From NCBI RefSeq assembly GCF_936916975.1, contig NZ_CAKZGO010000040.1:1-64000 (forward strand): a stretch of 64,000 nucleotides of DNA, written 5' to 3'. This document shows positions 16,092-45,844 of the stretch, one piece after another. Origin of the DNA: an uncultured Dongia sp. GTDB lineage: Bacteria; Pseudomonadota; Alphaproteobacteria; Dongiales; Dongiaceae. A program made the position numbers and the translations under genes. How positions within the stretch are numbered: the stretch's first letter is position 1; every line of letters begins with the position of its first letter. Under the pieces are notes generated by a model, which was not told the origin of the DNA, made no database searches, and saw nothing but the letters and a program-made list of their open reading frames with translations.

Positions 16092-16317
16092 GATGCTAAG
16101 AGGCTTCGCCCCCCGCGCTGGCCAGTGCTTGACGCAAGCGCGACCGTGGGGGTTTCCCCGCCGTTCGGCCTACGGCCTGCCACGGCCCGCGCCTATGGCG
16201 CTGGGCGATACCCCTCCCCCACGATCGACACTGGCCATTGCTACCCCCACCGCTCACGCGGCCCCGGAAGCATGCGCGAGCTGCATGCTTCGCATGGCAA
16301 AGAAGGGAAATCGGGAA
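16092..16317 (+). promoter_or_regulatory. Long structured leader, copy A (before the DUF3560/methyltransferase gene)
   Basis: This GC-rich 226-base leader is homologous to the one before ssb (45589-45844). Shared landmarks, in order, are GCTAAG/GCTAGG, a GGCTT..GCCCC hairpin, GCAAGCGCGA, TTTCCCC, TTCGGCC..CGGCC, GCTGGG, TTGCTA and a final GAAGCATG..CATGCTTC stem (16267-16274 with 16284-16291). A 12-base outer stem pairs 16141-16152 with 16216-16227, with one mismatch. The equivalent stem in copy B has different bases that still pair, which argues for a folded RNA or folded single-stranded DNA. The region 15854-16091 before it has further GC-rich inverted repeats but no gene. Confidence 0.7.
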
Positions 16318-18114
16318 ATGAACGACACACCGCGCGGGACTGCTACCTATTCACCAGACGACAACAAACTGCGCTTCTATCCGCTGCACCGGCTGGCAGC
16401 GGAACACTATCAGCAGATTAAGGCGGCAGGTTTTGCTTGGGCGCCGAAACAGGAATTATTTGTCGCGCCGAAATGGACACCAGCACGCGAGGACTTGTTA
16501 ACCGAATGGTGCGGCGAGATCGAGGACGAGGATAAAAGCCTTGTAGATAGGGCGGAAGTCCGCGCTGACCGTTTCAGTGGATACCGTGAGAAGCGCGCAA
16601 GCGAAGCAGACCAGCAACACGCTGCTGTTGACCAGTTCGCCGAACGCTTCGCTTTTGGGCAACCTATCCTTGTTGGCCATCACAGCGAGCAGCGCGCCAG
16701 GAAAGATAAAGAGCGCATCGAAAATGGCATGCGCAAGGCCATCAAGCTGTGGGAAACGTCCGAATATTGGAAGTACCGCGCAGCCGGCGCCATCCGTCAC
16801 GCGAAATTTAAAGAGCTGCCAGCCGTTCGCGCCCGACGCATCAAGACCATCGAGGCCGAGCAGCGCAAGACACAGCGAGAGCATGACAAGGCTGCGAAGA
16901 TGTTGCAGGCGTGGGAGACGATCGCCGCTATCAGCGACCCAGACCAGCAGCGCAAGGCCGCGTTGCACGTCGCGAATGTGGCTGATCATTACGGGCTGAC
17001 GATGCCCGATGGTGAGACGCATTGGAGCGCATGGGGTGCCATCGAGGACAACAAGGTTACAGTTGCCTATGTCATCGAGCGCCGCCACAAGGGCATGCCG
17101 GCCATCATGGCGCAGTGTGCGCGATGGCTTGCCCACTATGCTAACCGCCTCAATTACGAACGGGCGATGTTAGAAGAACAGGGCGCCGCCGCGTTGCTCG
17201 ACAAGAAGCCACGCAAGGAGCTGTTGCCGATCATGAACTATAGGGCACCGGATGGCATCGAGTGCGGCCGGTTCAATGCGTCGCGCGATACCGTGCGCCT
17301 TGGCCAGGTTGAAGTGACGAAGGCCGAATATAGTCAGATCGGGAATGACTATAAGGGTTGCCGCGCCGTCGCCGGCACGCATCGGGTGCGCGTTGCGATG
17401 GTGCGCCACGCTCTTGTTGCCGTCTACATCACTGATAGCAAGGATCATGGCACGCCGCCCGCTTCGAAGGCGAAGGACGAAATCCCGGCCGCCGAGCCGA
17501 CCCCACCCAATGAGGAACCGCGCAATTATACCCCGCGCCAGGAGACAGAGGAGCGAGCCGGCAAATTCGAGGCCCTGAAAGACGGCCTGCGCCAAGGCGT
17601 CAAGATGATCACAGCCCCGCAGCTTTTCCCGACGCCGGCAGCACTCGCCGCCCGGGTGGTAATCCTCGCCGGCATCGAGGCCGGCGCCGAAGTCTTGGAA
17701 CCGAGCGCCGGCACCGGCTCTTTGCTTCGCGCGTTGCCAGCAGACGAAACCGAGAAGCCCGGCCATGTGGTCGCCATCGAGATCAACCGCGATCTTGCCG
17801 ACCAGCTCGACCATTCGGGCCTTGCCGGCGCCGTGGTCAACGCTGATTTTCTGGAACTCACCCCGGAGATAATCGGCCTTTACGACATCGTTCTAATGAA
17901 CCCGCCATTTGAGAACGCGGCGGACATCAAGCATATTCAGCACGCCCGCGCCTTCCTGAAACCGGGTGGCCGGATCGTGGCGATTTGTGCCAATGGACCC
18001 AGGCAGCGGCGCGAGCTGATGGACATGGCGACCCATTGGGAGGATTTGCCGGCCGGTTCCTTTGCCGCGAGCGGTACACAGGTCAACGCGGCCCTGCTGG
18101 TCATCGACGTATAG
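16318..18114 (+). CDS. DUF3560 domain fused to an N6-adenine methyltransferase-like domain
   Basis: A 598-residue protein. The N-terminal ~240 residues match DUF3560 proteins of conjugative elements: a YSPDDNKLRFYPLHRL start, AGFAWAPKQELFVAPKWTP, a long basic coiled region, and GHHSEQRARKD. The C-terminal ~200 residues are a Rossmann methyltransferase: LEPSAGTGSLL (SAM binding), VAIEINRDLA and the catalytic DIVLMNPPFEN motif typical of adenine-N6 enzymes, with no clear target-recognition domain. The ATG at 16318 follows a GGGAAA stretch; the reading frame is open further upstream only through the conserved leader. Proteins of this type are often placed among anti-restriction or early-entry genes; that role here is inferred from family context and the shared leader with ssb. 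Confidence 0.8.
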   Translation: MNDTPRGTATYSPDDNKLRFYPLHRLAAEHYQQIKAAGFAWAPKQELFVAPKWTPAREDLLTEWCGEIEDEDKSLVDRAEVRADRFSGYREKRASEADQQHAAVDQFAERFAFGQPILVGHHSEQRARKDKERIENGMRKAIKLWETSEYWKYRAAGAIRHAKFKELPAVRARRIKTIEAEQRKTQREHDKAAKMLQAWETIAAISDPDQQRKAALHVANVADHYGLTMPDGETHWSAWGAIEDNKVTVAYVIERRHKGMPAIMAQCARWLAHYANRLNYERAMLEEQGAAALLDKKPRKELLPIMNYRAPDGIECGRFNASRDTVRLGQVEVTKAEYSQIGNDYKGCRAVAGTHRVRVAMVRHALVAVYITDSKDHGTPPASKAKDEIPAAEPTPPNEEPRNYTPRQETEERAGKFEALKDGLRQGVKMITAPQLFPTPAALAARVVILAGIEAGAEVLEPSAGTGSLLRALPADETEKPGHVVAIEINRDLADQLDHSGLAGAVVNADFLELTPEIIGLYDIVLMNPPFENAADIKHIQHARAFLKPGGRIVAICANGPRQRRELMDMATHWEDLPAGSFAASGTQVNAALLVIDV

Positions 18115-18153
18115 CGCCACAGGGGGAGCGGGCTTTCCCTCCCCGTGCCCCTG

Positions 18154-18186
18154 CCCTGCACCTGGTTCCCCGCACCAGGTGCAGGG
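18154..18186 (+). terminator. Terminator after the DUF3560/methyltransferase gene
   Basis: Perfect 12-base arms (18154-18165 and 18175-18186) with a 9-base loop follow the stop by about 40 bases. The tail CCAGCCCTTCTCTT is only partly T-rich. Confidence 0.7.
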
Positions 18187-18236
18187 CCAGCCCTTCTCTT
18201 AGGAATACCAGAGGTTTGGGCTGTGACTTGAAATTT

Positions 18237-18357
18237 CCGGCGAATTGCCGTACATATGGGTTGTCCGGCAATTTGCCGGACCTTAAAACGCAAGCAAAAC
18301 AGCAAAACACGCACCGAAAAACAGCAAAACGCAGAACAGCAAACAGCGCAAACCGAT
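18237..18357. promoter_or_regulatory. Palindromes and A-rich repeats before the toxin-antitoxin pair
   Basis: A 19-base palindrome with 9-base arms (GTCCGGCAA at 18263-18271, TTGCCGGAC at 18273-18281) and a related imperfect copy at 18237-18250 (CCGGCGAATTGCCG) are followed by a C/A-rich tract (about 18284-18357) with several GCAAAAC repeats. DUF1778/GNAT pairs autoregulate from such operators, so these are candidate binding sites. No gene is seen in the 18115-18487 interval. Confidence 0.45.
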
Positions 18358-18487
18358 AGCAAAAATGACGAACGGAGCTAACGGTAGGCCTCAGAGCAGC
18401 TTGGATAAGCAGCGCCCGTGCCAAAGACCTGACGCATGTCAGGTAGAGCCAGTGCCATGTGCCCCGAAGCAGCAGAAAGAGCGACCT

Positions 18488-18883
18488 ATGACGACTTTAA
18501 ATCACGGAACCCGTGGAACGCGGGGCGAAGGAAAAGGAGAGAGATTGGAGGCCAGGGTATCAAAGGGTCATAAGGAGCTGTTTCAACGTGCTGCTGATCT
18601 GGAAGGCGTGACGCTCTCTGATTACATCATCTCGGCCATGATGGACCGGGCTAGATCGACAATCAGAGAGCATGAAGTCATCGTATTGACCGGCCGTAAC
18701 CGCGAGGCATTTCTTGAGGCCCTGAGTAACCCGGCGCCAGTTTCGCCGAAGCTCGCCGCCGCATTCCGCAAACTAAGGAGTTTGCAGGATGCCCAGAAGC
18801 AGCCCGCTAAGCGACAGGCTTCCCGAATTGTTGAGCGCAAAGCACAGTCGCGCGGCGTTCAACAGCGGAAACGAACAGCTTGA
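18488..18883 (+). CDS. DUF1778-type antitoxin of a GNAT toxin-antitoxin pair
   Basis: A 131-residue protein. Residues ~18-95 have the DUF1778 (TacA/AtaR) pattern: a basic strand (RLEARVSKGHKELFQRAADLEG), VTLSDYIISAMMDRAR and a NREAFLEALSNPAPVSPKL segment, i.e. ribbon-helix-helix DNA binding followed by the toxin-neutralising helix. The last ~35 residues are a basic extension that overlaps the toxin gene by 95 bases. The ATG at 18488 is chosen because the domain begins just after it. The antitoxin binds DNA with its partner acetyltransferase and represses the operon. Confidence 0.8.
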   Translation: MTTLNHGTRGTRGEGKGERLEARVSKGHKELFQRAADLEGVTLSDYIISAMMDRARSTIREHEVIVLTGRNREAFLEALSNPAPVSPKLAAAFRKLRSLQDAQKQPAKRQASRIVERKAQSRGVQQRKRTA

Positions 18884-19304
18884 TAACTATCTAAAACTAC
18901 GCGCCAGCCAGGACGCGAAGCGCGGCGTTGCCGTTCCATACGTCATCGCCGACGACGAAAGCAGCGTAGTGGGCTATTATACGCTGTCATCTACCAGCAT
19001 CGACCTTGGCCAGTTGCCGCCGAAGCTGGAAAAGAAGCTACCCGCCCATGCAGTTCTTGGCGCGACGCTGCTAGGGCGCATGGCGGTTGATGTGAGCCAC
19101 CAACGCCGGGGCCTGGGATCGATCATGATCGCCCACGCCCTTGACCTAGCGTTTCGCGTTAATCCGGCCGGCAGCATCGCCGTGGTGGTTGATGCCATCG
19201 ACGCCCAGGCAGTGCGGTTCTATGAAGGTTACGGTTTTTTCCGATTACCGGAGGCAGACCGCACCTTGTACATGCTGCGGGGCTCACTTCTGAAATACCT
19301 GTAG
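18789..19304 (+). CDS. GNAT acetyltransferase toxin (TacT/AtaT type)
   Basis: A 171-residue GNAT-fold protein. It has the family start (PLSDRLPELLSAKHSRAAFNSG, LDNYLKLRASQDAKRGVA), the acetyl-CoA loop region RMAVDVSHQRRGLGSIMI and the C-terminal VDAIDAQAVRFYEGYGF with the conserved Tyr that is the general acid in TacT-type toxins. These enzymes acetylate the amino group of charged tRNAs and stop translation. Its ATG follows AAGGAG and lies within the antitoxin reading frame, giving an unusually long 95-base overlap. Confidence 0.85.
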   Translation: MPRSSPLSDRLPELLSAKHSRAAFNSGNEQLDNYLKLRASQDAKRGVAVPYVIADDESSVVGYYTLSSTSIDLGQLPPKLEKKLPAHAVLGATLLGRMAVDVSHQRRGLGSIMIAHALDLAFRVNPAGSIAVVVDAIDAQAVRFYEGYGFFRLPEADRTLYMLRGSLLKYL

Positions 19305-19581
19305 CCGTCGCTCGCCGGTCGGATCTCGTTACCGAGATACTGGCCGGCGCCGCGCCGCCAGTCGGGCCAGCCAGCGGCGGGCACGCCTGCCGCTGGCTGG
19401 GATTCTCACATTGACGCACTCGACATAGCCAGGTGTCGACTTGCACGTAAATCGGAGAATCCGCGGACCGATGAGGAACTGAGACACGTGCAAACCGACA
19501 GTTTGGGTATTTCTGGGTCATTAATTGGGTAATTAACCATCCTTCTTGCTCTTTTGGATATTTTTGGGTATATTTTTGGGT

Positions 19582-20634
19582 ATGCCCTTTGAAACTGATT
19601 CCTTCCAAATTACCGCCCCCATCCTCGCCCTGATCTCCGAGATCGACGAATTCAAAGGGGCCTGGCGGGCGCTGCGCACGCTCGCCCCCGAACGCCTATC
19701 CGCCCTGCGGCGGGTGGCTACGATCGAGAGCATCGGTTCGTCCACGCGCATCGAAGGCAGTAAGCTCTCCGATACCGACGTGGAGCGTCTGCTTTCCAAA
19801 CTCGAAATCAAATCCTTCAAGTCGCGCGACGAACAGGAAGTGGCTGGGTATGCGCAGGTGATGGAAACGGTCTTCGCGCATTTCGACGCGATTGACCTCA
19901 CCGAGAACCACATCATGCAGCTACACCGCGACTTGCTCGCTTTTAGCGACAAAGATGAACGCCACCGCGGCGCTTACAAGACGCTTCCCAACAACGTCAG
20001 TGCGTTCGACGCCGACGGAAAAGAAATCGGTGTCATCTTTGCGACGGCGACACCCTTTGATACCCCAGCGCGTATGAAGGAACTGGTCGAATGGGCCAGA
20101 AACGCGCTTAGTGAGCAGAGCTTGCATCCGCTCCTGGTCATCGGAACCTTTACCGTCGTGTTTCTCGAAATCCATCCCTTCCAGGATGGCAATGGAAGGC
20201 TCTCCCGTATTCTGACGACGCTGCTGCTGCTACGTTGTGGATATGCCTATGTGCCCTATTCCTCGCTCGAAAGCGTGGTTGAGGCCAGTAAGGAGGGCTA
20301 CTACCTCGCCCTGCGTCAAACGCAGCGGACGATCCGTGATCCAAAGCCTGATTGGCAACCCTGGATCACATATTTCTTGCGCATTCTTCAACAGCAAAAG
20401 CGCCGACTGGAAAGCAGAATAGAGCGAGAGCGCCTTATTGTAGGAATGCTACCTGAGCTCTCTCTCCAGATTCTGGATGCCGTCAAGGAGCGTGGGCGCA
20501 TCACTATCAGCGATGCTGTCAAACTAACCGGCGCGAATAGGAACACCATCAAAAAGCATATCGCTACACTTGTCGGTACTAACCATCTCAACCAGCACGG
20601 AAGTGGCAAAGGAACCTGGTATGGTGTCCCTTAG
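19582..20634 (+). CDS. Fic-domain AMP-transferase-type protein with own inhibitory helix
   Basis: A 350-residue protein. The catalytic loop HPFQDGNGRLSR starts at His198 and is intact (HPFx[D/E]GNGRxxR). Near residue 54 the sequence SSTRIEGS fits the class II inhibitory motif [S/T]xxxE[G/N] (Ser54, Glu58, Gly59), so activity is probably self-restrained. The C-terminal ~80 residues look like a winged helix (RGRITISDAVKLTGANRNTIKKHI). Such proteins modify target proteins with AMP. The upstream region holds four or five TTGGGTA-like repeats (19502-19590), possibly an operator. The ATG at 19582 is preferred; upstream codons are a poor Ile/Leu/Phe run derived from these repeats. Confidence 0.88.
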   Translation: MPFETDSFQITAPILALISEIDEFKGAWRALRTLAPERLSALRRVATIESIGSSTRIEGSKLSDTDVERLLSKLEIKSFKSRDEQEVAGYAQVMETVFAHFDAIDLTENHIMQLHRDLLAFSDKDERHRGAYKTLPNNVSAFDADGKEIGVIFATATPFDTPARMKELVEWARNALSEQSLHPLLVIGTFTVVFLEIHPFQDGNGRLSRILTTLLLLRCGYAYVPYSSLESVVEASKEGYYLALRQTQRTIRDPKPDWQPWITYFLRILQQQKRRLESRIERERLIVGMLPELSLQILDAVKERGRITISDAVKLTGANRNTIKKHIATLVGTNHLNQHGSGKGTWYGVP

Positions 20635-20681
20635 GTCGAAATCGGAGGCGGCTGAGGCCATTTGAATCTGAGAAGCGAAAA

Positions 20682-21074: not shown

Positions 21075-21369
21075 TAGCGGCTCACAAGGCTGTTGAGAGC
21101 ATGAATTGAACCCCTCCTCTTCGGCGAAGCGGATCTAATCTGGCGCGTGACGGGCAAAGAGCAGCCCGGACCTGCTAGGCGGGGATTGCAGACCGATAAT
21201 AGCTCGTCCTGGTCAAAAACACGTGCACCGAAATACCGAAGCTCACTTGGTCTCGTCCTGCGTTTCGCCCAGGAATGTGACCAGCTTCTTATGCGCGCTC
21301 TCGATCCGAAACTCGGACTCGGTCAGAAGCTATCGGTGAGTTGGCGTATGGCTTCTTTCAAACTCCGGA

Positions 21370-21490
21370 CAGCAGAAAGGCGGGCCGCAGCCCGCCTTTC
21401 GATTTTGTGCCCTAAAGGCTTGTTAACGGCTGCGACGACCCGAGGGGTATCGCTGACGGCGCACGATTTCCTATCGGCTAAGATATTTGG
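21370..21490 (-). ncRNA. tracrRNA for the type II-C system
   Basis: The plus strand at about 21445-21484 contains a near copy of the reverse complement of the CRISPR repeat (CACGATTTCCTATCGGCTAA is identical in 19-20 positions). Read on the minus strand, this gives an anti-repeat at the 5' end, then a short ACCC-CTC-GGGT nexus-like stem, a GCC..GGC stem, and a terminator hairpin at 21376-21399 followed by TCTGC. That order is the normal tracrRNA layout. The anti-repeat pairs well with the 3' half of the minus-strand crRNA repeat, with a bulge before a second pairing block. The transcript diverges from cas9. The 5' end near 21490 is an estimate. Confidence 0.75.
21376..21399. terminator. Bidirectional hairpin ending the tracrRNA
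   Basis: Ten-base perfect arms, 21376-21385 and 21390-21399, with a CGCA loop. On the minus strand it is followed by TCTG; on the plus strand by CGATTTT. It would end the tracrRNA on one strand and also plus-strand transcripts arriving from the Fic side. Confidence 0.75.
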
Positions 21491-21557
21491 AATTACGCTT
21501 TACAACTGTCTATTTTCCCGCATTGAATTGCAAGAGCAATTATTGGGGGAGTGGCCG

Positions 21558-24500
21558 ATGAACTATCGTCTCGGCCTGGACGTCGGCACCAATTCCATCG
21601 GCTGGTGGCTTGTGACGCTTGATAAAGCCAATCGGCCAGGCGGATCGCTGGCAGGCGGCGTACGCATATTCTCGGATGGACGAAACCCAAAGGACGGTAC
21701 GTCGTTGGCGGTGCAGCGTCGAGTACCGCGCGGGATGCGCAAGCGGCGCGACCGCTATTTGAGGCGGCGCACCGATCTCATGGCGCTGCTAATCGCGACT
21801 GGTTTGATGCCATCAGACGAAGCAGAGCGCAAAGGACTGCAAACCCTAAATCCTTACGCACTGCGCGACTTGACAGTGACACAACAGGTTCGCCCTCACG
21901 AACTCGGCCGCGCCATCTTTCACCTCAACCAGCGTCGCGGGTTTAAATCCAATCGTAAGACCGACAAGAACGAAGACAACAAGATCACCGAGCGGATCGG
22001 CGAATTGAAGCGCCGCATCGCCGAGAGCGGCAGCATAACCCTTGGCCAGTATCTGCATCGCCGCAGGCTGAAGGATAAAATGGTCCGTGCCCGACCTGAA
22101 GCTGGTTTCTATCCCGAGCGCGCACTGTATGAAGAAGAGTTCGATCAAGTCCGCGCTACACAGCAAGCTCATCAAACGCTGAATGACGCACAATGGGATG
22201 CGATCAAGGATATCATTTTTTACCAACGCCCCCTAAAGCCGGTCGATCCTGGCTGGTGCCTGCTGGAAAGCGGGGAACGACGTGCGCACCGAGCCCTGCC
22301 CGCAGCGCAAGAGTTCCGAATGGTGCAAGAAGCGAACAATCTGCGCGTTCTGCAGCGCGGCCAGGGGTCACAACCGCTTTCGCAGGAACAGAGGGATAAG
22401 GTCCTGGGAGAACTGCGCGGTACTAAGGAACTGAAATTAGAGCGGCTGTTGAAATTGCTGAGTCTTCCAGATGGCGCGCAGATCAACCTTCTCGACGAAC
22501 ATCGCACAGTGTTGAAAGGTGACGAAACAGCAGCACGATTGTCACACAAACATATCTTCGGCAAGACGTGGCGCCAATTCACGTTCGAGCGACGGAGCGC
22601 CATCGTACATAAACTGCTGAAAACGGAGCAGCCCGAAGAAATCATGCGCATCGCGCGGGCTGAGTGGGGCCTCGATGAAGCGGCAGCATTGAAACTCACA
22701 CATCTGCCGTTGCCAGAAGGATATATGCGCCTTAGCGAAACGGCCATTCTGAAACTGCTGCCGCTCATGGAGGATCAGGGCCTCGGATATGCCGAAGCCG
22801 CTGCGGAAATTCCAGAGTACGGTCATCATTCTGACTTCAGGTCTGGTGAAGCACATGACCGCTTGCCCTACTACGGCGAAGTTCTTGCCCGCCATGTCGT
22901 CGGCGCGGACCCGACCAGACCTCGCACCGATGAAGTGGGACACTTCGGCCGCATCGCCAACCCCACGGTCCATATCGGACTGGGTCAAATGCGCCGTCTC
23001 GTCAACCGGTTGATCGAAATCTACGGCAAGCCTGAAGAAGTCAATATCGAAGTAGCGCGCGAGTTGAAGATGAACCAGGAAGAGAGGGAAAAAACACGCA
23101 AGACCAACAGCGACAATGAAAAGGCGAACCGCCGTCGCGAAGATCAGATTCGCGCTGCCGGCGGCGTGCCATCGCCCGACCTGCTGCGCAAATTGCGCCT
23201 GTGGGAGGAACAGAAAGTTGGTGCCATCAATGTGTGCCCCTTCACCGGAGCAGCCATTTCCCTCGCGATGTTGCTCACCGACGCGACCGAGATTGAACAC
23301 ATACTACCTTTCTCCAAGACACTGGACGATTCGATGGCCAACAAGGTGCTGTGTTTGCGTGAGGTGAATCGCGTCAAACGCGACCGGTCACCGTTTGAAG
23401 CGTTCCAAACCAATCTCCAGGCAGGACGCTATGCCTGCTCCTATGTTGATATCATCGCTCGGGCCGGCTCGCTGCCGCCGAACAAGAGATGGCGCTTCGA
23501 ACCCGATGCAATGGAGAGGTTCGCGCAAGAGTCAGGATTCCTCGACCGCCAGCTTAATGAGACCAAATATCTCTCCCGCATTGCACGCGCTTACTTGGCA
23601 ACTCTCTACAATGAGAAAGGCGAAGGACGTCTACGGGTGCGCGCTATTCCCGGCAAGCTCACGGCCATGTTGCGCGGCAAATGGGGACTGAACAGCCTGT
23701 TGCGCGATCACAATCGGCTGATCGGCGACGCTCCCAAGAAGAACCGCGATGACCATCGGCATCATGCCCTGGATGCTTTCGTCATCGCCATGACCGACCA
23801 GGGCATGCTGCAGCGGATTGCAGCCCTAAATTCCGATGCTGACCGGTATCGGCTGATCGACGTGATGCCAGCACCCTGGGAGGGTTTCACGCCCGATAGC
23901 CTGCGGCCACAGCTCGATCGACTAGTCGTCTCACATAAGCCGGATCACGGCACATTCGACGGCAAGAGCACTAGCGGCGCCCTGCATAACGATACCGCCT
24001 TTGGCCTGCTGCCCAAGGACAGCGATCCGCGCGGTAATGTGGTGGCACGCGTTGCGCTTACCAGCATCAAGAAGCGCGACGAGATCGGCAGGATCCGCGA
24101 CAGAGCGTTGGCCACTGCCCTGGAGCAACTGTGGGACGATGTCGCTGCTTCCGGCGGTAAACCCGCCGACTTCGCCGCTCGCGCGCAAAAGGAGGGCATT
24201 GCGATCGGCGGCCGGCGCATGCATGTGCGGCGCGCCCGCATGATCAGTAATGAGCAGACGGTCGTATTTATCCGAGATCGTAGGACGGGCCAGATGTATA
24301 AAGCGTACAAGCCGGACGGCAATGCTTTTGCCGACATCTATCGGCTGCCCGATGGCAATTGGAATGCTGTCGTTGTGCGACGCTTCGATGCGAACCAGCC
24401 CGATTTCGATCCTTGTCGGATGCGCCCGCATCCGGCAGCCAGAAAGATCATGCGGCTGCACAATGACGATATGGTCGCCGTGGATGACAATGGCCGCAGG

Positions 24501-24713
24501 CGCATCCTCCGGGTGGTCAAAATGTCCGGGCAGACAATTTTCCTGGCCGATCATCTGGAGGCCGGGAGTCTCAAGAAACGCGATCAAGACAAGGAGGATT
24601 CCTTCAAGTACCTCGCCAAATCGGCCAACAGCTTTCGCAAAATGAAACTGCGCAAGATCGGCATTGATGAGATCGGACGCATCAGCGACCCTGTCGTTCG
24701 GCGATATAAATAA
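21558..24713 (+). CDS. cas9: Cas9 nuclease, type II-C
   Basis: A 1051-residue RNA-guided nuclease, a normal size for type II-C. All catalytic residues are visible: RuvC-I Asp8 in LGLDVGTNSIGW, RuvC-II Glu498 in NIEVAREL, HNH His581 in EIEHILPFS with a downstream Asn in MANKVL, and RuvC-III His736/Asp739 in DHRHHALDAF. The arginine-rich bridge helix is at residues ~54-75. The C-terminal ~300 residues would hold the wedge and PAM-interacting domains. The ATG at 21558 is used because the RuvC-I strand begins there; the open frame upstream crosses the tracrRNA. Downstream is the CRISPR array. No cas1, cas2 or csn2/cas4 gene is present in the window, so spacer acquisition must come from elsewhere or not at all. 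Confidence 0.97.
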   Translation: MNYRLGLDVGTNSIGWWLVTLDKANRPGGSLAGGVRIFSDGRNPKDGTSLAVQRRVPRGMRKRRDRYLRRRTDLMALLIATGLMPSDEAERKGLQTLNPYALRDLTVTQQVRPHELGRAIFHLNQRRGFKSNRKTDKNEDNKITERIGELKRRIAESGSITLGQYLHRRRLKDKMVRARPEAGFYPERALYEEEFDQVRATQQAHQTLNDAQWDAIKDIIFYQRPLKPVDPGWCLLESGERRAHRALPAAQEFRMVQEANNLRVLQRGQGSQPLSQEQRDKVLGELRGTKELKLERLLKLLSLPDGAQINLLDEHRTVLKGDETAARLSHKHIFGKTWRQFTFERRSAIVHKLLKTEQPEEIMRIARAEWGLDEAAALKLTHLPLPEGYMRLSETAILKLLPLMEDQGLGYAEAAAEIPEYGHHSDFRSGEAHDRLPYYGEVLARHVVGADPTRPRTDEVGHFGRIANPTVHIGLGQMRRLVNRLIEIYGKPEEVNIEVARELKMNQEEREKTRKTNSDNEKANRRREDQIRAAGGVPSPDLLRKLRLWEEQKVGAINVCPFTGAAISLAMLLTDATEIEHILPFSKTLDDSMANKVLCLREVNRVKRDRSPFEAFQTNLQAGRYACSYVDIIARAGSLPPNKRWRFEPDAMERFAQESGFLDRQLNETKYLSRIARAYLATLYNEKGEGRLRVRAIPGKLTAMLRGKWGLNSLLRDHNRLIGDAPKKNRDDHRHHALDAFVIAMTDQGMLQRIAALNSDADRYRLIDVMPAPWEGFTPDSLRPQLDRLVVSHKPDHGTFDGKSTSGALHNDTAFGLLPKDSDPRGNVVARVALTSIKKRDEIGRIRDRALATALEQLWDDVAASGGKPADFAARAQKEGIAIGGRRMHVRRARMISNEQTVVFIRDRRTGQMYKAYKPDGNAFADIYRLPDGNWNAVVVRRFDANQPDFDPCRMRPHPAARKIMRLHNDDMVAVDDNGRRRILRVVKMSGQTIFLADHLEAGSLKKRDQDKEDSFKYLAKSANSFRKMKLRKIGIDEIGRISDPVVRRYK

Positions 24714-24743
24714 TTGTTATATCAATGACTTACTGCCATTCCG

Positions 24744-25101
24744 AACTTAGCCGATAGGAAATCGCGCGCCAGCCGCAACCGGGCAACTGAACATAGATGT
24801 AGACGTAGAGTTTAGCCGATAGGAAATCGCATGCCAGCCGCAACCGTGAGCGAAGCCGTGGATGAATAATTTAGCCGATAGCAAAGCACGCGCCAGCCGC
24901 AACGTATCTCCTGCTCGCGGGTCATGGCTCAACAGTTTAGCCTATAGGAACTCCCGCGCCAGCCGCAACGAAGGGCGGCAGGCTTGAGGAGTCAGCCGTA
25001 GTTTAGCCGATAGGAAGTCGCGCGCCAGCCGCAACCAGCCCGCCGCAGAGGTGCCGTACCACTAGAGTTTAGCCGATAGGAACTCCCGCGCCAGCCGCAA
25101 C
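24744..25101 (-). CRISPR. Six-repeat type II-C CRISPR array
   Basis: Six 36-base repeats at 24744, 24809, 24868, 24934, 25000 and 25066 separate five spacers of 29, 23, 30, 30 and 30 bases. In plus orientation each repeat reads A(G)TTTAGCCGATAGGAA, then a variable middle (AATCGCG, CTCCCGC, GTCGCGC), then GCCAGCCGCAAC. The minus-strand reading (starting GTTGCGGCTGG) is preferred as crRNA sense: it matches the tracrRNA anti-repeat, and the copy nearest cas9 (24744) is degenerate at its minus-strand 3' end, as expected of the last repeat. The leader would then be right of 25101. The repeats at 24809, 24868 and 24744 carry more changes than the others. Confidence 0.93.
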
Positions 25102-28894: not shown

Positions 28895-30613
28895 TTACAC
28901 GCTCCCACGTAGATGCTGGTGGACATCGTCTACAAACTTTACAAGCGGTTCGCTGTCACCCAGTTTTGTTTTAGCCACGTGTTCGAGTGCCTTGCCTATC
29001 CATCTGCCTTTCTTTCTGCTGCCAGTGACGGACTTTAACCAACCCTCCAAGCCACCCACAGGTACAATGAAGATATCGAGTTGTCGGCAGAGTTGCTCTA
29101 GGTCATCAAAATGTTTTTGACCTACGGGACTCAACGCATCGCGACCGTGTTCTTTTACCTTTGCCCATTTCTTGGCATAGTCCTGTGCTTTGTCGATGTT
29201 CCGTTTAAGATTCTGGAGCTCGCGAGAAGCGTCTTCCTGCGCATCTACTGTAGTAGGCGCGGCTGCGATGCAAGCCGTCAGGGCTGCCAACGTCTCTAGA
29301 TAAACCTCCCTATCCGTTTTCTGTAGAACTTCATTGGCAATCACCGCCTGCAGTTCCATCACGCGCTGAATTGTTGGCGTAGCATCGTCAATCGTTGGCA
29401 AGAGCCGCTTTAGTTCGGCTGACTCGCGTAGCACGTCGAAGTCAACAATAACGACATGGGGTACTTTGATGGCACGATAGGCATTAGCAACTTTATGGGC
29501 TGTCTGCTTGTTATGAGCATTGACGTAGTGTATTTCTTCGCCGGGATAACATTGTTGAGCGACCGCTTGATAAAGCGCTCTATCGCTATCCCCTTCAACA
29601 ACTACCGCACCCTTGTAGAACAACGCATCGAGCACGCGGCCAGATTTTAGCAAGGGATTGCGGGCAATTTCTGCGATCTTATCTTTCTCCAAAACATTCG
29701 CGACGGTGTTGTCTTCCTGTCGCGATAGGCGGACGATTGTGACGTTGTCATTGTCCAGCATGCCGCGCAGTACATCAGTGCTATGGGTCGAGCAGATAAT
29801 CTGCTGCTGATCAGAAGCAGTCCGCGCCATAACTTGGCCGAGCTGCAGAGCCTGCGGAGGATGAAGGAACGCTTCAGGCTCATCAATAAATGTTACAGGC
29901 CGCTTCATCAGCGTAAGGAACAAGAGGGTGGTGACAAAGCTTTTGAATCCATCGCCTTGAACGTCAAGCGTCTCGTACTTGTCCAACAGAGGCCGCGCAT
30001 CTCTCATGTTGGGGGGGATTTGATCGAAGTTTTTCCCGATACGAATGACATGCTCGGTCAATGTAGACGAGTCGAGCTTCATGGATTGGCCAAATGCGAG
30101 CGTTGTTTCGACGGAGAGGGCGCTGTCAGTGGCACTACCGCTTTCGTATAGAGACTGCAGCAAACCGTCTTCTTGGCCTGTTGACTGACGCTTTGCTGCT
30201 GCCAGTCTGTCCTCAGTCCGTGCTTGCACAAACCATGCTCGCCCAAAGTGCTGAAGAAAATCTGTACGTTCATTGAGAGGCGCGGCCCCAATTGTCTTTT
30301 TTAACCCCTTTATGTAGCTACTATCGATGCCTAAAGACAAACCTTGATACGGGAGTGCTGTCTTGATGCGATATTGCGTCGGTGAGCCTTCTTCAATTTT
30401 AAGACCAGCGGCTGCGAAACATTCATCGCCCGACATTTGTGGTAAAGTGATACCGGCAACAATCTTCCGACTATCGTCGAGCCCCTGTAATGCGAATGCA
30501 CACTCATTTAGGAGCAGAGTCTTGCCGGCGTTGTTCGGCCCAACTATCACCGTCAGGGCGGCTAGCGGGATCCGCTTGCCATTAGCTAGCGTCAGTTCTT
30601 GAATACCGAGCAT
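28895..30613 (-). CDS. OLD-family ATPase/TOPRIM nuclease
   Basis: A 572-residue protein with an ABC-type ATPase half (Walker A GPNNAGKT at residues 25-32, a signature-like region, Walker B TFIDEPEAFLHPPQ, switch CSTHSTDVL) and a C-terminal TOPRIM nuclease with VVVEGDSDR and VIVDFD acidic motifs. This is the overcoming lysogenisation defect architecture, close to the GajA subunit of Gabija and to other class 1 OLD nucleases. No UvrD-type GajB partner follows: the next gene is the integrase. A stand-alone defence nuclease, or one paired with the integrase operon, is the reasonable reading. Confidence 0.9.
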   Translation of the reverse strand: MLGIQELTLANGKRIPLAALTVIVGPNNAGKTLLLNECAFALQGLDDSRKIVAGITLPQMSGDECFAAAGLKIEEGSPTQYRIKTALPYQGLSLGIDSSYIKGLKKTIGAAPLNERTDFLQHFGRAWFVQARTEDRLAAAKRQSTGQEDGLLQSLYESGSATDSALSVETTLAFGQSMKLDSSTLTEHVIRIGKNFDQIPPNMRDARPLLDKYETLDVQGDGFKSFVTTLLFLTLMKRPVTFIDEPEAFLHPPQALQLGQVMARTASDQQQIICSTHSTDVLRGMLDNDNVTIVRLSRQEDNTVANVLEKDKIAEIARNPLLKSGRVLDALFYKGAVVVEGDSDRALYQAVAQQCYPGEEIHYVNAHNKQTAHKVANAYRAIKVPHVVIVDFDVLRESAELKRLLPTIDDATPTIQRVMELQAVIANEVLQKTDREVYLETLAALTACIAAAPTTVDAQEDASRELQNLKRNIDKAQDYAKKWAKVKEHGRDALSPVGQKHFDDLEQLCRQLDIFIVPVGGLEGWLKSVTGSRKKGRWIGKALEHVAKTKLGDSEPLVKFVDDVHQHLRGSV

Positions 30614-36073: not shown

Positions 36074-36187
36074 CCATTCCTCCATAAAGTTGTGTCGGGA
36101 TCTGGATGCGACGAAAGGTTGTTGTCCGGTAAAGATGTTGGCGTAAATTGGGGCCAACTATCAAAGCAACGTTGGCAGGGGGTAGGT

Positions 36188-37790: not shown

Positions 37791-38029
37791 CCGTTGACCT
37801 CAAAGCTTGACGTATATCGCTGCGCCAAGCTGCTCTGCCGAGGGTCATTTGTCCTGGATGCGGATCCTGCGCGCGATCGTCGAGCTCCGGTGCGAGGTGT
37901 CGAAATTTGGCGAGACGTTGCACTGGTGATCGGTACCGCTGCTCTCAATGTGAATCGATCTCCCGTATTTTCCCGCATTCTCTGCAAATGATGCCGTAGC
38001 CTATCAATCGAAATTAGGCGGAGGTTGCA

Positions 38030-38254: not shown

Positions 38255-38257
38255 AGC

Positions 38258-39201: not shown

Positions 39202-39203
39202 CG

Positions 39204-39509: not shown

Positions 39510-39706
39510 TCGGCGCCTCCGATCTGCCGGCACGATATAGAGAACAAGAAGGGAACGTCAATGGGAGGAAAGTCCGTTTAGACTGGGCAAGCTCGTGGAT
39601 AGTCATAGCCCCTACCAGCCAAGAGTCGATTCGACTCTTGCGCGAAGTGAGGCATATACTTCAGCTACAAATCGCTTGCCGCAGCTGTCACCTGGGGGGA
39701 CTGGCA

Positions 39707-40393: not shown

Positions 40394-40458
40394 GAGTTAG
40401 ATTCTTCAGCAGAAGCATACTCTCAGTCGATGTAGCTAATTCGATTTTGTGAGGGACA

Positions 40459-41631: not shown

Positions 41632-41850
41632 CCGACGGCGGCAAGAATGTCGCACTACTGGTTGATTCCTAAATCTTGGCCTGCTGCATTTGGGAGAAAG
41701 CAGACGTAGAGGTTGACGCCATGGTGGCCTCGGCATGGCCAGAGGCATTGTCATTGCGGTTCGGCAAGCGCAACTAGATCAGACGAGAATTTGGCCCGTC
41801 AACCTATGGTCTGAGATGCCGTGGCGCCTATCAAACGGAGCACAAATAGT

Positions 41851-42531
41851 ATGCCGACGTTTCGCTTGGGGAATTTTAACGCGCATTCGCAGCCACAACA
41901 TGAAACAGCCATGACCGCGGTCGTCAGATCACTCTTTGGAACAATAGGCTATCCGCCCCTCAAGTCGGATGTGGTGCATATCGTCAACAGTCCTGCCGTG
42001 CAAGTTCCAATGTACTGTACTGGCACGCCCGAAGAGATAATCTTGATTGCGTCGCCCGGGAACTTTCCTTGGCAATTCTCATATCAGCTTGCCCATGAAC
42101 TCAGCCATATGTCCGCCCGTGCTGATCTAAGGTTCCCCCGCCGAGATGGGCTTCATTGGATCGAAGAAACGCTAGCCGAAACTCATTCGCTGATTGCTAT
42201 GCGACGGATGGCGGAGAATCCTGGGCCACTGCAGACCGGCGCGATCACCTATGATAATGAGTTGCACCGGCGGCATCGTGATTTGCCAATTAACAAGGAC
42301 TGGTACGCCGCGAATGCTGATCAGCTTCGCACAATGGAGTCACTTTCAGATCTCGGACAAGCGCTCGCGAGGTTCTTGTTCGACCATGTTCCGCACGATC
42401 GGATCCTCGCTGACAATCGACTGCTATATGAGCTCGATATTGGCACTGAACTCTCTGGCTTCCTAGCGAGCTGGATCGAAAGTGGCGGTGACGGGCCAAG
42501 TGTACCGTCAGCACTCGCAGCACTGATTTAG
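41851..42531 (+). CDS. Metallopeptidase-like protein (HExxH)
   Basis: About 226 residues from the ATG at 41851; a GTG at 41821 is also open. The motif QLAHELSHMSARADLR contains HELSH (HExxH), and a third ligand candidate, Glu, lies in HWIEETLAETHS about 25 residues later, typical of gluzincins. No signal peptide is visible, so it probably acts in the cytoplasm. Short zinc peptidases of this type appear in toxin or regulator-cleavage systems, but no partner gene is seen. Confidence 0.65.
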   Translation: MPTFRLGNFNAHSQPQHETAMTAVVRSLFGTIGYPPLKSDVVHIVNSPAVQVPMYCTGTPEEIILIASPGNFPWQFSYQLAHELSHMSARADLRFPRRDGLHWIEETLAETHSLIAMRRMAENPGPLQTGAITYDNELHRRHRDLPINKDWYAANADQLRTMESLSDLGQALARFLFDHVPHDRILADNRLLYELDIGTELSGFLASWIESGGDGPSVPSALAALI

Positions 42532-42573
42532 CTTCGGCTCGTACATCTGTCTCCCACGAGATTTCTCGGCGAC

Positions 42574-42850
42574 TCACTTCGTCTTCCGACGACTGCCGCG
42601 GCCGCGAACGATTACCGGCAGATCCGCGTGCAGTTTGCTTCGCGCCAAGTCTTCCGGCGTCGGAATGGGCACACCCGTCGCCGGTTCTCCTCGATGGCCC
42701 AATCCGTATGCTCGTCGCAGTGCATCACGCCGATATGCGCCGACGTCGCCGCGGAGCCGTAGTAGCCGGCCCGTGAGCATGCACGTCGTCGCCATCTCCG
42801 GCTCACCGACGAAGTTTAGGGTAATCGGGCCGTTCTGGGCTGGCGCCTGG
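42574..42850 (-). pseudogene. Degraded second copy of the 38258 zinc-type gene
   Basis: The segment is about 85% identical by eye to 38258-38548 on the same strand. A single-base deletion between the codons for AIEENRRR and PTPEDLARSK shifts the frame, and an approximately 11-base deletion removes part of the first Cys motif. The C-terminal end ADLPVIVRGRGSRRKTK is still intact. The SRAP partner is not duplicated with it, so this is a remnant of a former duplication. Confidence 0.85.
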
Positions 42851-42948
42851 CATGACGGCGCCCAAAGCTCGTTTCATGGTCACCCGGTAATGAGAACATA
42901 AGCAGAACATAGTTCGAATACCTCTGTAGTATAGCTACATTTCGCCCC

Positions 42949-42978
42949 TTGAACAATCGTAGCTAATGGCTACATAAT
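42949..42978 (+). promoter_or_regulatory. Promoter with operator before the RelE gene
   Basis: TTGAAC (42949) and TACATAAT (42971-42978) form a -35/-10 pair about 17 bases apart. GTAGC-TAATG-GCTAC (42959-42973) lies between and over them, and another GTAG..CTAC pair lies at 42926-42938. This is the usual place for an autoregulatory operator of a toxin-antitoxin unit. Confidence 0.55.
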
Positions 42979-42983
42979 CAGGC

Positions 42984-43235
42984 ATGAAAGCGATCCGCTA
43001 CTCCACCCCGGCCCTGAAACAGCTTCGTAAAATCCCGGCTGCAGACGCCAAACGGATCGTTGCGAAGGTCGAGCAGTTGGTATCGGGACCGGCGGCGCTC
43101 GCGAACCAAGTGAAGAAGCTACAAGGCGTCGATGCGATGCGGCTCCGCGTCGGCAATTACCGGGTCATCTATACCGATGTTGGTTTGGTGCTGCTGGTGC
43201 TCAAGGTTAGGCGGCGCGGTAGCGTCTATGAGTGA
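42984..43235 (+). CDS. RelE/ParE-type toxin
   Basis: An 83-residue protein (MKAIRYSTPALKQLRKIPAADAKRI, LQGVDAMRLRVGNYRVIYTDVG) with the RelE/ParE core: a first strand, two helices and the basic RLRVGNYRVIY strand. RelE-type toxins cut mRNA in the ribosome; ParE-type block gyrase. The sequence does not decide. It precedes the antitoxin in reversed order, the arrangement seen for HigBA-like pairs. Confidence 0.85.
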   Translation: MKAIRYSTPALKQLRKIPAADAKRIVAKVEQLVSGPAALANQVKKLQGVDAMRLRVGNYRVIYTDVGLVLLVLKVRRRGSVYE

Positions 43236-43245
43236 GGAGATTTCA

Positions 43246-43854
43246 ATGGCCAAGACAAAGGATATCCGCGTTCGGGTCGCCCCGAAGATCACCCCGCGCG
43301 GTCAGCCAATCGTATTCGGGACACGCTCCTCCGCCGCCGCAGAAGCGGCCAAGATCGTGAGGCGCTATAACGACCGAATGGCTGCCCTGACCAAGAGTTT
43401 CGTCGAGGATTTCAAGGTCATTGCTGATGCTGCTGTTAAAGCCGCTACGCTGGGTGAAGTCGCTGAAGATATCGCTGATGCGACCGATGCGCGCGCCGTC
43501 ATTGAAGGCGTCCGCGCCGGCACCATCGAAACCTTCCCTGGTGAACTTGTCGGCCGTCTGATCGCGGGCGAAAACCCTGTCCGCATCTTCCGTGAGTTCC
43601 GGGGAATGACCGGTGAACAGTTGGCAGCGAAGGTCGGCATTTCGCGGCCCTACCTGACGCAGATCGAAACCGGCAAACGCGAGGCCATGTTCCCGGTGAT
43701 GGCCAAGATCGCGCGGGCCCTCGACGTCAGCCTGGATCTGCTGGCACCCGGACCGGATGATCCTTCAGGGGCCAACGTGAGCGCCGAAGAAATGTACACG
43801 GAAGACCTCGAAGTGATTGCAAGTAAGGAGGGGAAATTGCCGCCCTCCGTCTAG
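43246..43854 (+). CDS. HTH antitoxin/regulator paired with RelE
   Basis: About 202 residues. A C-terminal helix-turn-helix domain (ENPVRIFREFRGMTGEQLAAKVGIS, YLTQIETGKREAMFPVMAKIARAL) is preceded by a 120-residue helical N-terminal region that is long for an antitoxin. The start at 43246 follows GAGGAG; an earlier ATG at 43228 overlaps the toxin stop and is possible. It should neutralise the toxin and repress the pair from the GTAGC-type operator. Confidence 0.8.
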   Translation: MAKTKDIRVRVAPKITPRGQPIVFGTRSSAAAEAAKIVRRYNDRMAALTKSFVEDFKVIADAAVKAATLGEVAEDIADATDARAVIEGVRAGTIETFPGELVGRLIAGENPVRIFREFRGMTGEQLAAKVGISRPYLTQIETGKREAMFPVMAKIARALDVSLDLLAPGPDDPSGANVSAEEMYTEDLEVIASKEGKLPPSV

Positions 43855-43936
43855 GATAGGCAGCGTTTCACTTGACCCTGGGGTTGGCTGTTACTGTGTG
43901 TGCTCATGATCGGCAAACCCAAGAAAGGATACGACT

Positions 43937-44149
43937 ATGGCTGACGATAAATCAAAGACCGGTAAGCCTGATCGCGACCGGGTGGCTGTCGGTGAGGATT
44001 ACGAGGTCGATGTGCTAGCGAAAAAATATCCGAAGCTGACCCGCGCCGATATCACCAAGGCCATTCGCGACCAAGGCCCGATGCGCACCGATATCGAGAA
44101 GGAACTGGACGCCAAGATGTTCTACGCCAACGCCAAGAAGGGTTCCTGA
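43937..44149 (+). CDS. DUF3606-type small protein
   Basis: A 70-residue protein matching the DUF3606 pattern: RDRVAVGEDYEVDVLAKKYPKLTRADITKAIRDQGPMRTDIEKEL. The family is a short, charged helical protein found widely in alphaproteobacteria, of unknown function. An AAAGGA site lies before the ATG. A terminator follows directly. Confidence 0.75.
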   Translation: MADDKSKTGKPDRDRVAVGEDYEVDVLAKKYPKLTRADITKAIRDQGPMRTDIEKELDAKMFYANAKKGS

Positions 44150-44157
44150 AGCGACAA

Positions 44158-44198
44158 AAGAGCCGCCGCCCCATTAGGGACAGCGGCTCTTCTTCTTT
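44158..44198 (+). terminator. Terminator after the DUF3606 gene
   Basis: Nine-base arms AAGAGCCGC (44158-44166) and GCGGCTCTT (44183-44191) are followed by CTTCTTT. Confidence 0.8.
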
Positions 44199-44435
44199 GT
44201 GCGGATGACGGGTTCGATACCGCTCTGACGGTCGGTGGCGCCGACCTGCCTCCCAATGGGCTACATCCGCTCGGATGTATTTAGGCCAGCGCTCCAAAAC
44301 CCGGGCAATTTCTCAAAACCGCACCGTCAAGTTCGTCACCAGCGGCAACCGCCCGCCGCCCTGCGCCGCCCATACTCGTTGAACTGAGCATGAAAATGCC
44401 TGCTAGTTCGGGGGGGGGGCGGCATGACGGAACAT

Positions 44436-44804
44436 CTATTTGCCACAGCTCGGAAAGCCCTCAATAAGCGCGCTGATAACCAAGCTCGAGGCCGTCAGGT
44501 GCCATTCTGCCGGATGCTCGTTCATCCATTTCATATATACCGCCCTCATCTGGCCGGCAGTGACTTGCGGAGGAATGTCGAAAAGACACGTCGTATCTCC
44601 GGCCCGTACAAGCGTGGCGTGCAGATCTGCAATGCCCATCAAGTAGCCTAGGCACTCACCGTAGCGCGCGCCGGTCTCGACCGAGCAGTCGTCGTACAGC
44701 TGCTGGCCGCTCAAATAGCTGCCTGTGCTCTGCAGCTTGTCCGCCGCCCCTGGCGACGCGCAAATCAATAAGCCCAGCGCTGCAAAAAACAGTACACGCG
44801 ACAT
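44436..44804 (-). CDS. Rap1a/Tai-like secreted protein
   Basis: A 122-residue protein with a signal peptide (VLFFAALGLLICASPGAA). The body fits the Rap1a/Tai family: YLSGQQLYDDCS, ARYGECLGYLMGIAD, TTCLFDIPPQVTAGQMRAVYMKWM and ISALIEGFPSCGK, with cysteines in conserved places. Rap1a proteins are immunity factors against peptidoglycan-cleaving effectors, but stand-alone members of unknown role are common. No matching effector lies next to it. A run of ten G on the plus strand lies just past its 3' end. Confidence 0.75.
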   Translation of the reverse strand: MSRVLFFAALGLLICASPGAADKLQSTGSYLSGQQLYDDCSVETGARYGECLGYLMGIADLHATLVRAGDTTCLFDIPPQVTAGQMRAVYMKWMNEHPAEWHLTASSLVISALIEGFPSCGK

Positions 44805-45039
44805 GTCCAATCCCTTCCCACGGCGGTGCGTATTGCACCCACAATCACGGGTTGCGTCAAGGCTCCAGACAAGGGGAAAGCGCCGGGCTGCCCGTGCTCG
44901 CTGAAGTCGCTGACGATCTTGAGCGGGAGGCCAGCCTTCTACGAGTGATGGCCACGGGAAGGGCGCTCTGGTCCTAGGGCCTGCCAGGCGGCGGGCGAGC
45001 AATTGCCCGCCGCTGCAGGCTAGCTCAATACCAGGGCCA

Positions 45040-45261
45040 CTATTTGGCCTCATAACCAAACATCGTTCGACCGCCATACTTCTTTGCAATCTTCTTTGCT
45101 TCTTCGGTGCATTGAAACGCATCGGCCAGCGCCTCGGCATATCGTTTGACGAACTTCCTCAATTGTTTCTGACGTAAAGATTTGTTACCGCCGGCATCCG
45201 ACGGTAGCATTGCGTTTACGGCATGCTTTATAGCGCAGATGTTCTCTGAACTGATTTCCAT
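45040..45261 (-). CDS. Small hypothetical helical protein
   Basis: About 73 residues from the ATG at 45261; a longer frame extends to 45312. It contains ISSENICAIKHAVNAML and LRQKQLRKFVKRYAEALADAF, two amphipathic helices, and a Lys/Gly-rich tail. No family is recognised. The gap to the next plus-strand gene (45262-45844) has no other gene apart from leader B. Confidence 0.45.
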   Translation of the reverse strand: MEISSENICAIKHAVNAMLPSDAGGNKSLRQKQLRKFVKRYAEALADAFQCTEEAKKIAKKYGGRTMFGYEAK

Positions 45262-45588
45262 GCAACTAAGTATGCGAGACACGTCGGGCAGAAGCCGGGC
45301 ACAAACTTGCACAGCACGCGAATGGCTTCGGCTGGACTTTTGGCGCTGCTTCTTGCTTCGGCCCTCCTATTGGCTGTTAGTTCTTAGTAACCTGGGATTG
45401 GGATGATGAGTGGAAGCGTTGAGCGAAATGAGCACGGCGACTCCCACGGTAATCTGCCGTTGCGACACGGCAGTCGAATGAGGAGCGACCGTACGCCGCC
45501 ATCCATCGCATTCTCGACAAATTCAATCTTTAACTTTGCATCAACACTCTGTTGATAGGTCGTTATTCCTCCGCGCGAAACGCGCGGG

Positions 45589-45844
45589 GATCGCTAGGGG
45601 CTTGGCCCCACGCGCGGCCTAGGGCTGGAGCGCCAAGCGCGATTGTCGGGTTTCCCCACCCTTCGGCCTAACGGCCTGCAGGGCGCTTATGCGGCGCTCT
45701 GCGCTGGGTGATTCCCCTTTCCGACAATCGGCCCTTGTCCTTGCTAACCCCACCGGTCGCCCGGCTCCGGGAAGCATGAGCGCGGTGCTCATGCTTCGCG
45801 ATGCGAAGTGAAAACTATCGATAGACCAGGAAGGTAGATAGACC
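45589..45844 (+). promoter_or_regulatory. Long structured leader, copy B (before ssb)
   Basis: This copy shares the order of elements with copy A (16092-16317): GCTAGG, GGCTTGGCCCC, CAAGCGCGA, TTTCCCC, TTCGGCCTAACGGCC, GCTGGG, TTGCTA, CCGG and a final stem. A perfect ten-base outer stem pairs 45640-45649 (CGATTGTCGG) with 45721-45730; the matching stem of copy A has different bases that also pair. The final stem pairs 45771-45781 with 45787-45797 (11 bases). The ssb start follows 48 bases later. Confidence 0.7.

Follow-up and report, generated by a model that had tools for sequence, protein, structure and literature searches.

The 64,000-nucleotide stretch analysed here (the window) forms the beginning of the 131,920-base contig NZ_CAKZGO010000040.1, from an uncultured member of the alphaproteobacterial genus Dongia, and carries two long leaders, termed A and B (Table 1). 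The former immediately precedes a gene encoding a protein with DUF3560 and methyltransferase domains, and the latter precedes ssb. The original prediction, made from the letters of the window, held these leaders to be homologous over about 220 bases despite the unrelated genes behind them, and this is borne out by an alignment with 75.2% identity over 206 nt (blastn E 2.5e-27). All other matches within the contig have E values of at least 0.08, except for B's own 3' palindrome read backwards (E 1.8e-4), and a blast-type search of the whole genome with B as query returned B alone. A covariance model (CM) of the family described below recovers A with 49.9 bits and B with 38.0 bits, and nothing else of significance, in the 5.48 Mb genome, the next match having an E value of 0.15. 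As judged from sequence comparison, A and B are divergent members of one large element family, and they are probably transferable initiation elements or promoters of single-stranded DNA (ssDNA), similar in function to the Frpo and ssi elements of known conjugative plasmids.

The stem that the original prediction had described as compensated corresponds to an inner helix, P3, which is formed in A by GACCGTGGGGG/CCCCCACGATC with one C.A, and in B by CGATTGTCGG/CCGACAATCG, with bases compensated relative to those of A. An additional outer helix, P1, had been overlooked; this pairs TGGCCAGTG with CACTGGCCA in A and CTAGGGC with GCCCTTG, including one T.T, in B. A small inner helix, likewise missed before, is formed by CGCC/GGCG in A and by CACCC/GGGTG in B, and the terminal GAAGCATG hairpin is retained in both leaders, just as had been stated. 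The DNA folding z-scores (200 shuffles) are -2.76 for each strand of A, and -3.59 for the coding and -4.22 for the opposite strand of B. Relative to the family consensus, P4 is shifted in both leaders and GTGCAG is lacking at its conserved place, and their 3' part is similar to that of a subtype from Rhizobiaceae.

Table 1. Positions in the window of the two leaders, their parts and the associated genes
Feature	Position	Strand	Evidence or remark
Element A, whole leader	16092..16317	- (predicted folded and transferred strand; letters given on +)	homology to B; CM match on minus strand, 49.9 bits
A hairpin P0, 5', GAGGCTTCGCCCC	16100..16112		sequence; GGGGC/GCCCC hairpin repeated in many homologues
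A outer helix P1, 5' arm	16119..16127		pairs with 16229-16237
A small hairpin P2	16128..16138		sequence
A inner helix P3, 5' arm	16142..16152		pairs with 16216-16226; strong covariation, 51 sequences
A helix P4, 5' arm	16159..16163		partner about 16203-16207 (GGGCG within GGGCGAT)
A core motif GGGYGATNCCCC, conserved	16203..16214		103 nt upstream of start codon
A inner helix P3, 3' arm	16216..16226		pairs with 16142-16152
A outer helix P1, 3' arm	16229..16237		pairs with 16119-16127
A conserved block TTGCTACCCCCACCG	16238..16252		TTGCTACCCC repeated in many homologues
A 3' hairpin P5, GGAAGCATG...CATGCTTC	16266..16291		sequence
DUF3560 and methyltransferase-domain gene behind A	16318..18114	+	Pfam DUF3560 2.8e-31
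Element B, whole leader	45589..45844	- (predicted folded and transferred strand)	CM match on minus strand, 38.0 bits
B hairpin P0, 5', GGGGCTTGGCCCC	45597..45609		sequence
B outer helix P1, 5' arm	45619..45625		pairs with 45731-45737
B small hairpin P2, GCGCCAAGCGC	45630..45640		sequence
B inner helix P3, 5' arm	45640..45649		pairs with 45721-45730
B helix P4, 5' arm CACCC	45657..45661		partner GGGTG 45706-45710
B core motif GGGYGATNCCCC, conserved	45706..45717		127 nt upstream of start codon
B inner helix P3, 3' arm	45721..45730		pairs with 45640-45649
B outer helix P1, 3' arm	45731..45737		pairs with 45619-45625
B conserved block TTGCTAACCCCACCG	45741..45755		sequence
B 3' hairpin P5, GAAGCATGAGC...GCTCATGCTTC	45771..45797		sequence
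ssb gene behind B	45845..46222	+	Pfam SSB 2e-23
Candidate nic, TATCCTG/CC with cut after G	61678..61685	-	motif and position 5' of relaxase open reading frame
MOBP-type relaxase gene	62153..64000, continues to contig 64033	+	Pfam Relaxase 1.8e-6, above cut-off; NCBIfam MobP1 3.7e-9, far below its cut-off

Anatomy and spread of the element family

Among 152 copies of the element, 132 distinct ones could be anchored. In coding-strand letters the core reads: 1) the 5' arm of P3, a helix mostly about 10-12 bp long and free in sequence; 2) T-N-T-C; 3) helix P4, in which CCCnnnC pairs with GnnnGGG, enclosing a loop that spans TTCC to GTGCA and may contain a hairpin; 4) YGATNCCCCCT; and 5) the returning arm of P3. 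Outside the core are found P0, in part of the copies the outer helix P1 with the small hairpin P2, a TTGCTACCCC-like block, and hairpins upstream of the start codon.

RNAalifold returned no structure from the first 16 sequences, and the helices were defined from the anchored arms and then tested. The covariation check on homologues that had been proposed with the original prediction, run by a method other than R-scape, gave a strong signal: over 51 sequences and 19 pairs the covariation score is 0.537, versus 0.157 ± 0.012 (0/500) in shuffles that, to the detriment of the argument, ignore relatedness. A control with slid helices, which does account for relatedness, scores at most 0.141. Two-sided changes occur in 14 of the 19 pairs (shuffled mean 11.7; 3/500), and the P3 arms of the same copy match at 8.0 of 10 positions, as against 4.6 when arms are exchanged between cluster representatives. 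These comparisons argue that the conservation of the fold across the family is real.

The family was recovered by several search strategies. Neither A nor B matched plasmids by blastn at E 1e-5. Searches with B against 96 relatives gave short matches, and two loci that were rescanned and inspected (L003 and L016) were rejected. The first true homologues came from a list of 26 records at E ≤ 10, of which five were inspected; four (H87, H93, H100 and H102, namely two Thiothrix plasmids, Ca. Tenderia and Agrobacterium pusense) were kept for their intergenic place and common layout, and H89 was rejected. Two of the kept homologues, used as new queries, matched 101 and 67 plasmid records at E ≤ 1, the records being taken without individual checking. 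A seven-seed profile detected 20 copies in 11 sequences at E ≤ 1, among them a weak one from Desulfovibrio (E 0.019), which the CM scores at 8.6e-9. The pattern GTGCAGNNCGGGYGATNCCCCTCC occurs in at least 120 stretches of GTDB contigs and in one of viral contigs; 118 of the 121 loci have a profile match at E ≤ 1e-3, and 133 copies were obtained altogether. The viral match (L036) lies within a long open frame near phage-like genes, is devoid of the layout and was rejected. A reversed control pattern had no match in 60 genomes or records.

Among the matches listed, 73 of 80 record titles are alphaproteobacterial, and some of the records are chromosomes. In an even draw of 398 genomes from the phylum, searched under stricter filters, the CM matched 12, of which 11 (the window's own genome included) are of the window's class. 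The family, as far as these searches reach, is seen mainly in Alphaproteobacteria, with many copies borne on plasmids, and has scattered members in Gammaproteobacteria, Betaproteobacteria and Desulfovibrionales. The Rhizobiaceae subtype (pAgK84, L172 and L173) has weak or no CM matches, and its copy on pAgK84 (L042) was found by a hidden Markov model. The two copies inspected (L040 and L042) are without GGGYGAT and possess a 3' hairpin similar to that of A and B; the subtype may be a separate branch. The Rfam models have no match in the window at E ≤ 1, and none of their three matches at E ≤ 2 in four further loci (L037, L039, L040 and L043) overlaps an element. One of these, a traJ-II RNA match at L043 6653-6752 (minus), adjoins the relaxase operon of a Sedimenticola plasmid and probably marks the oriT (origin of transfer) region. 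A literature search, judged from titles and abstract openings of the papers listed, found no publication describing the element family, and nothing joining Frpo, Alphaproteobacteria and the leading region; the family is apparently undescribed.

Folded strand, direction of transfer and downstream genes

Helices of RNA or DNA tolerate a G.T wobble and do not tolerate A.C, and an A.C on one strand is a G.T on the other. With each combination of cluster and position counted a single time, and excluding the positions fixed by the search pattern, wobble-type exceptions in 20 similarity clusters comprise, when the coding strand is read, 41 events of A.C (equivalent to G.T on its complement) versus 8 of G.T (p 2e-6), with 14 clusters leaning one way, one the other and five tied; including the pattern-fixed P4 position, the count is 58 versus 14. 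The individual cells, with the same exclusion, show 36 A.C and 5 G.T in P3, and 35 A.C and 3 G.T in P4. Terminators, used as a control of this test, lean weakly in the expected direction (79 G.T versus 57 A.C in 337 hairpins). The DNA folding energy of the opposite strand is lower in 118 of 131 cores, higher in 11, and lower in all 20 cluster means, while 95-mers from genes lean slightly the other way (opposite strand lower in 43, higher in 69; n=112). The minus strand is also better folded in 61 of the 71 cores in which the pattern-fixed P4 pair is G-C. The wobble asymmetry and the folding energies together make it most likely that the conserved fold is formed by the strand complementary to the mRNA.

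Orientation relative to the relaxase gene was compared in 50 contigs or records, each with one relaxase match (five of them below the Pfam cut-off) and with copies detected by the pattern. All copies lie on the relaxase strand in 40 of these, all on the opposite strand in five, and on both in five (p 8e-8, with the mixed contigs left out and contigs taken as independent); of the individual copies, 75 of 86 are on the relaxase strand. This bias implies a fold on the transferred strand (T-strand) only on condition that oriT is situated upstream of the relaxase gene, an arrangement indicated in the window by the candidate nick site and assumed by us for the other plasmids of the family. The original prediction had named a candidate nick site (nic) in the window at 61678-61685. 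A TATCCTG|CC motif, which we take to be of the IncP/MOBP type, is indeed present there on the minus strand, 5' of the relaxase reading frame, but its frequency is no better than chance (16 matches to ATCCTGY alone in the window versus 16.7 expected), and the support for the candidate therefore comes from its position. If it is nic, the minus strand would be transferred with lower coordinates first, and would be the template of both ssb and the DUF3560 gene.

The genes behind the element, with starts assigned by simple criteria (a preference for ATG and for a ribosome site, no more than 250 nt away), encode proteins of types that are typical of plasmid leading regions, as far as their domains indicate. 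Pfam matches in 125 scanned out of 128 proteins include HTH_ParB (30), ArdC-N (27), DUF932 (17), DUF3768 (8), ArdA (7) and N6/N4 methyltransferases (6); among nine proteins behind CM matches of the phylum draw there are two ArdC and five HTH_ParB, two of the latter below the cut-off. The distance from the core to the predicted start codon has a median of 102 nt (quartiles 99-107; n=125), a spacing seen in most clusters and for proteins differing greatly in length; smaller groups of copies have values near 63 and 160. Of 12 CM matches that contain the core motif, 9 have a distance of 92-103. Plasmids of the family often carry several copies.

The contig also encodes VirB4, a VirD4-type coupling protein and RepA_C, and the DUF3560/methyltransferase gene is covered to at least 80% in 4968 of 5000 plasmid records among the matches listed. 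A reading frame of 3312 aa with RTX repeats (51225-61163; 34 calcium-binding repeat stretches) separates the oriT candidate from the coupling-protein region. A type II Cas9 is encoded at 21147-24713 (TIGR01865, 563 bits), adjoined by a short CRISPR-like array of six repeats spaced 59-66 nt (24723-25101); pLA6_010, which also bears the element, likewise has a Cas9 annotation (L170 18203-21205). An OLD-like AAA/TOPRIM ATPase gene at 28895-30613 is a possible defence gene.

Proposed mechanism and competing explanations

In the mechanism that we consider probable for A and B, the minus strand would enter the recipient during conjugation as the T-strand, leading with its 5' end at the nic (about 61.68 kb) and proceeding toward lower coordinates. 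Each element would then fold on this strand into P0, the outer P1, the small P2, the inner P3, an internal loop with GGGYGATNCCCC (in coding-strand notation), P4 and the conserved loop. The fold would let a polymerase of the recipient start RNA on the single strand, reading into the gene about 100 nt away, such that early genes would be expressed before the second strand is made: here ssb and the DUF3560 methyltransferase, and elsewhere ArdC, ArdA, ParB-like proteins, DUF932 and methylases. Duplex formation would abolish the fold and end the expression. The comparisons show the homology, the conserved fold and its strand, the orientation relative to the relaxase gene, the gene set and the spacing; we infer the production of RNA from the folded strand, the identity of the polymerase and the transience of expression.

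Several traits liken the family to Frpo and ssi elements: the T-strand would adopt a long duplex-like fold; the genes face oriT and the elements lie to its T-strand side, as suggested by the nic-like site and relaxase orientation in the window and by the strand bias in the family; and, by gene type, they precede early leading-region genes. The ssi copies of ColIb-P9 (IncI1) precede early genes such as ardA and psiB. In the F plasmid two copies, 90% identical, which we take to be Frpo, precede in one case ssb and in the other a small gene that is followed by a DUF932 gene; and the leading region of F resembles the present plasmids in its repertoire of ssb, a ParB-like gene, DUF932, a methylase and an antirestriction gene. 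As in the family, the strand opposite the mRNA folds better in both F copies (-140.1 versus -128.5 and -146.8 versus -131.7 kcal/mol). These copies (L174 10496-10505 and 15886-15895) carry GTGATGCCCC 137-138 nt upstream of the next start, which resembles GGGYGATNCCCC of the family at about 102 nt. A kinship to Frpo via GTGATNCCCC was considered and is unsupported by the CM and by ColIb-P9: on the nikAB strand of that plasmid GTGATNCCCC is found inside traJ only, and the motif common to F and the family may therefore be due to chance. In contrast to the family sequences seen, F has a long A+T-rich hairpin, and the ColIb-P9 record, unlike the family, yields no CM match.

Promoter activity is known experimentally for F Frpo (cited in PMC11541004), whereas for the present family it is predicted from sequences; the ssi elements of ColIb-P9 are named alongside Frpo as single-strand promoters in another account (PMC7736820). 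Samuel et al. 2024 proposed Frpo' and Frpo* as leading-region single-strand promoters, found by fold and -35/-10 matches, with five known Frpo/ssi sequences and candidates from four islands (of S. enterica, S. marcescens, an insect metagenome and S. pneumoniae) as seeds (PMC11541004). Two large surveys, described there and in a further study, used BLAST searches from known or putative Frpo sequences or from candidates derived with them (PMC11541004, PMC12826799). An overlap of the present family with Frpo' and Frpo* is possible.

A number of observations weigh against this reading of the family. No relation to F, ColIb-P9 or R388 is detectable by sequence (nhmmer) or CM. A simple scan for sigma-70 promoters found none on either strand around A and B, and none in 121 copies of the family at 9/12 or more matches; the same scan gives only 7/12 for the two Frpo copies of F. 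Since neither -35/-10 elements inside the fold nor a sequence relation to known members was found, the family is not classed as a member of Frpo/ssi. The original claim of single-strand promoters is supported in its anatomy: a folded opposite strand which is usually the relaxase-defined transferred strand, placed before leading-region genes. Eleven of the 86 copies are oriented against the relaxase gene, several of them near it; a reversed copy (L044 10285-10455, minus) adjoins the mobC/relaxase start of a Caulobacter plasmid. Reversed copies a few kb or less from the relaxase are also present in G102:C3, G114:C40 and G135:C23, and a role of such copies at or near oriT is conceivable. The two leaders themselves are about 16 and 45 kb from nic. 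As to the wobbles, other mismatches are as frequent as A.C (56 in P3 and 9 in P4, excluding pattern-fixed positions); in rigid columns the lean of the 12-column P3 is weak (20 versus 12), and that of P4 (37 versus 2) contains the pair fixed by the search pattern; and no lean is seen in hairpins of the flanks and loops. The A.C cells have come about within clusters chiefly by G>A (14, versus 2 via T>C), as would be expected from deamination of an exposed T-strand. At four-fold sites of the downstream genes T exceeds A (2283 versus 1366), which speaks against a general G>A lean, but C exceeds G (9729 versus 7623), which is neutral to such a lean or favours it. Given the G>A origin of A.C and this excess of C, part of the asymmetry may stem from mutational bias in DNA exposed as a single strand.

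Among the alternatives, an initiation site of the primase type, akin to the phage G4 origin or plasmid ssi-like sites, where the fold would only prime second-strand synthesis on the T-strand, appears unlikely. Such signals are ssDNA hairpins where RNA starts, and the present elements are likened to them by description. A fold and a location on the T-strand would fit this explanation equally well, and so would the failure to find sigma-70 hexamers; moreover, E. coli primase uses CTG as its start triplet, and the conserved GTGCAG is CTGCAC on the T-strand. However, this hexamer, present in most copies, is part of the search pattern, and A and B are without it in the conserved place. Priming also requires neither a position directly before early genes, often at several sites per plasmid, nor a fixed gene spacing, whereas the distance to the start codon is mostly near 102 nt.

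The original prediction had itself offered a structured RNA regulator as an alternative. A riboswitch-like or translational regulator acting in the coding-strand transcript would agree with the strong covariation and with a place in the 5' leader whose spacing to the start codon is fairly constant, yet we regard it as very improbable: the wobbles tolerated are those of the opposite strand (41 versus 8), in 118 of 131 cores the coding strand has the poorer fold, the strand bias relative to the relaxase has no place in it, and no Rfam model matches the elements compared. Scarcely any likelier to hold, and if anything less so, is an antisense RNA of the minus strand, which would fold and control the gene as the ctRNA of repABC does. 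The conserved fold being that of the minus strand speaks for it, as does the precedent of antisense ctRNAs on alphaproteobacterial plasmids (PMC10194956). On the other hand, its promoter would have to sit in the short stretch before, or within, genes of many unrelated families, the sigma-70 scan around A and B revealed none, and it gives no reason for the relaxase-strand bias.

Returning to single-strand initiation elements, a bolder form of this reading, which might as easily prove wrong as right, is that the family constitutes a second, independently built class of ssDNA promoters, devoid of sigma-70 hexamers and recognised by the fold and a few loop bases, which would switch on anti-defence and establishment genes from the T-strand in alphaproteobacterial and scattered other plasmids. 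The experimental basis of single-strand promoters is so far a small number of sequences; one survey set out from five of the Frpo/ssi kind (PMC11541004). The wobble-asymmetry test, which reads the folded strand from sequences alone, can be reused on other candidates. If the proposal is true, the element would offer a short, strongly covarying object for dissecting single-strand initiation, and a marker of leading regions and of unknown anti-defence genes in many environmental plasmids. Early expression from entering ssDNA would then be a general plasmid strategy reaching far beyond the enterobacteria.

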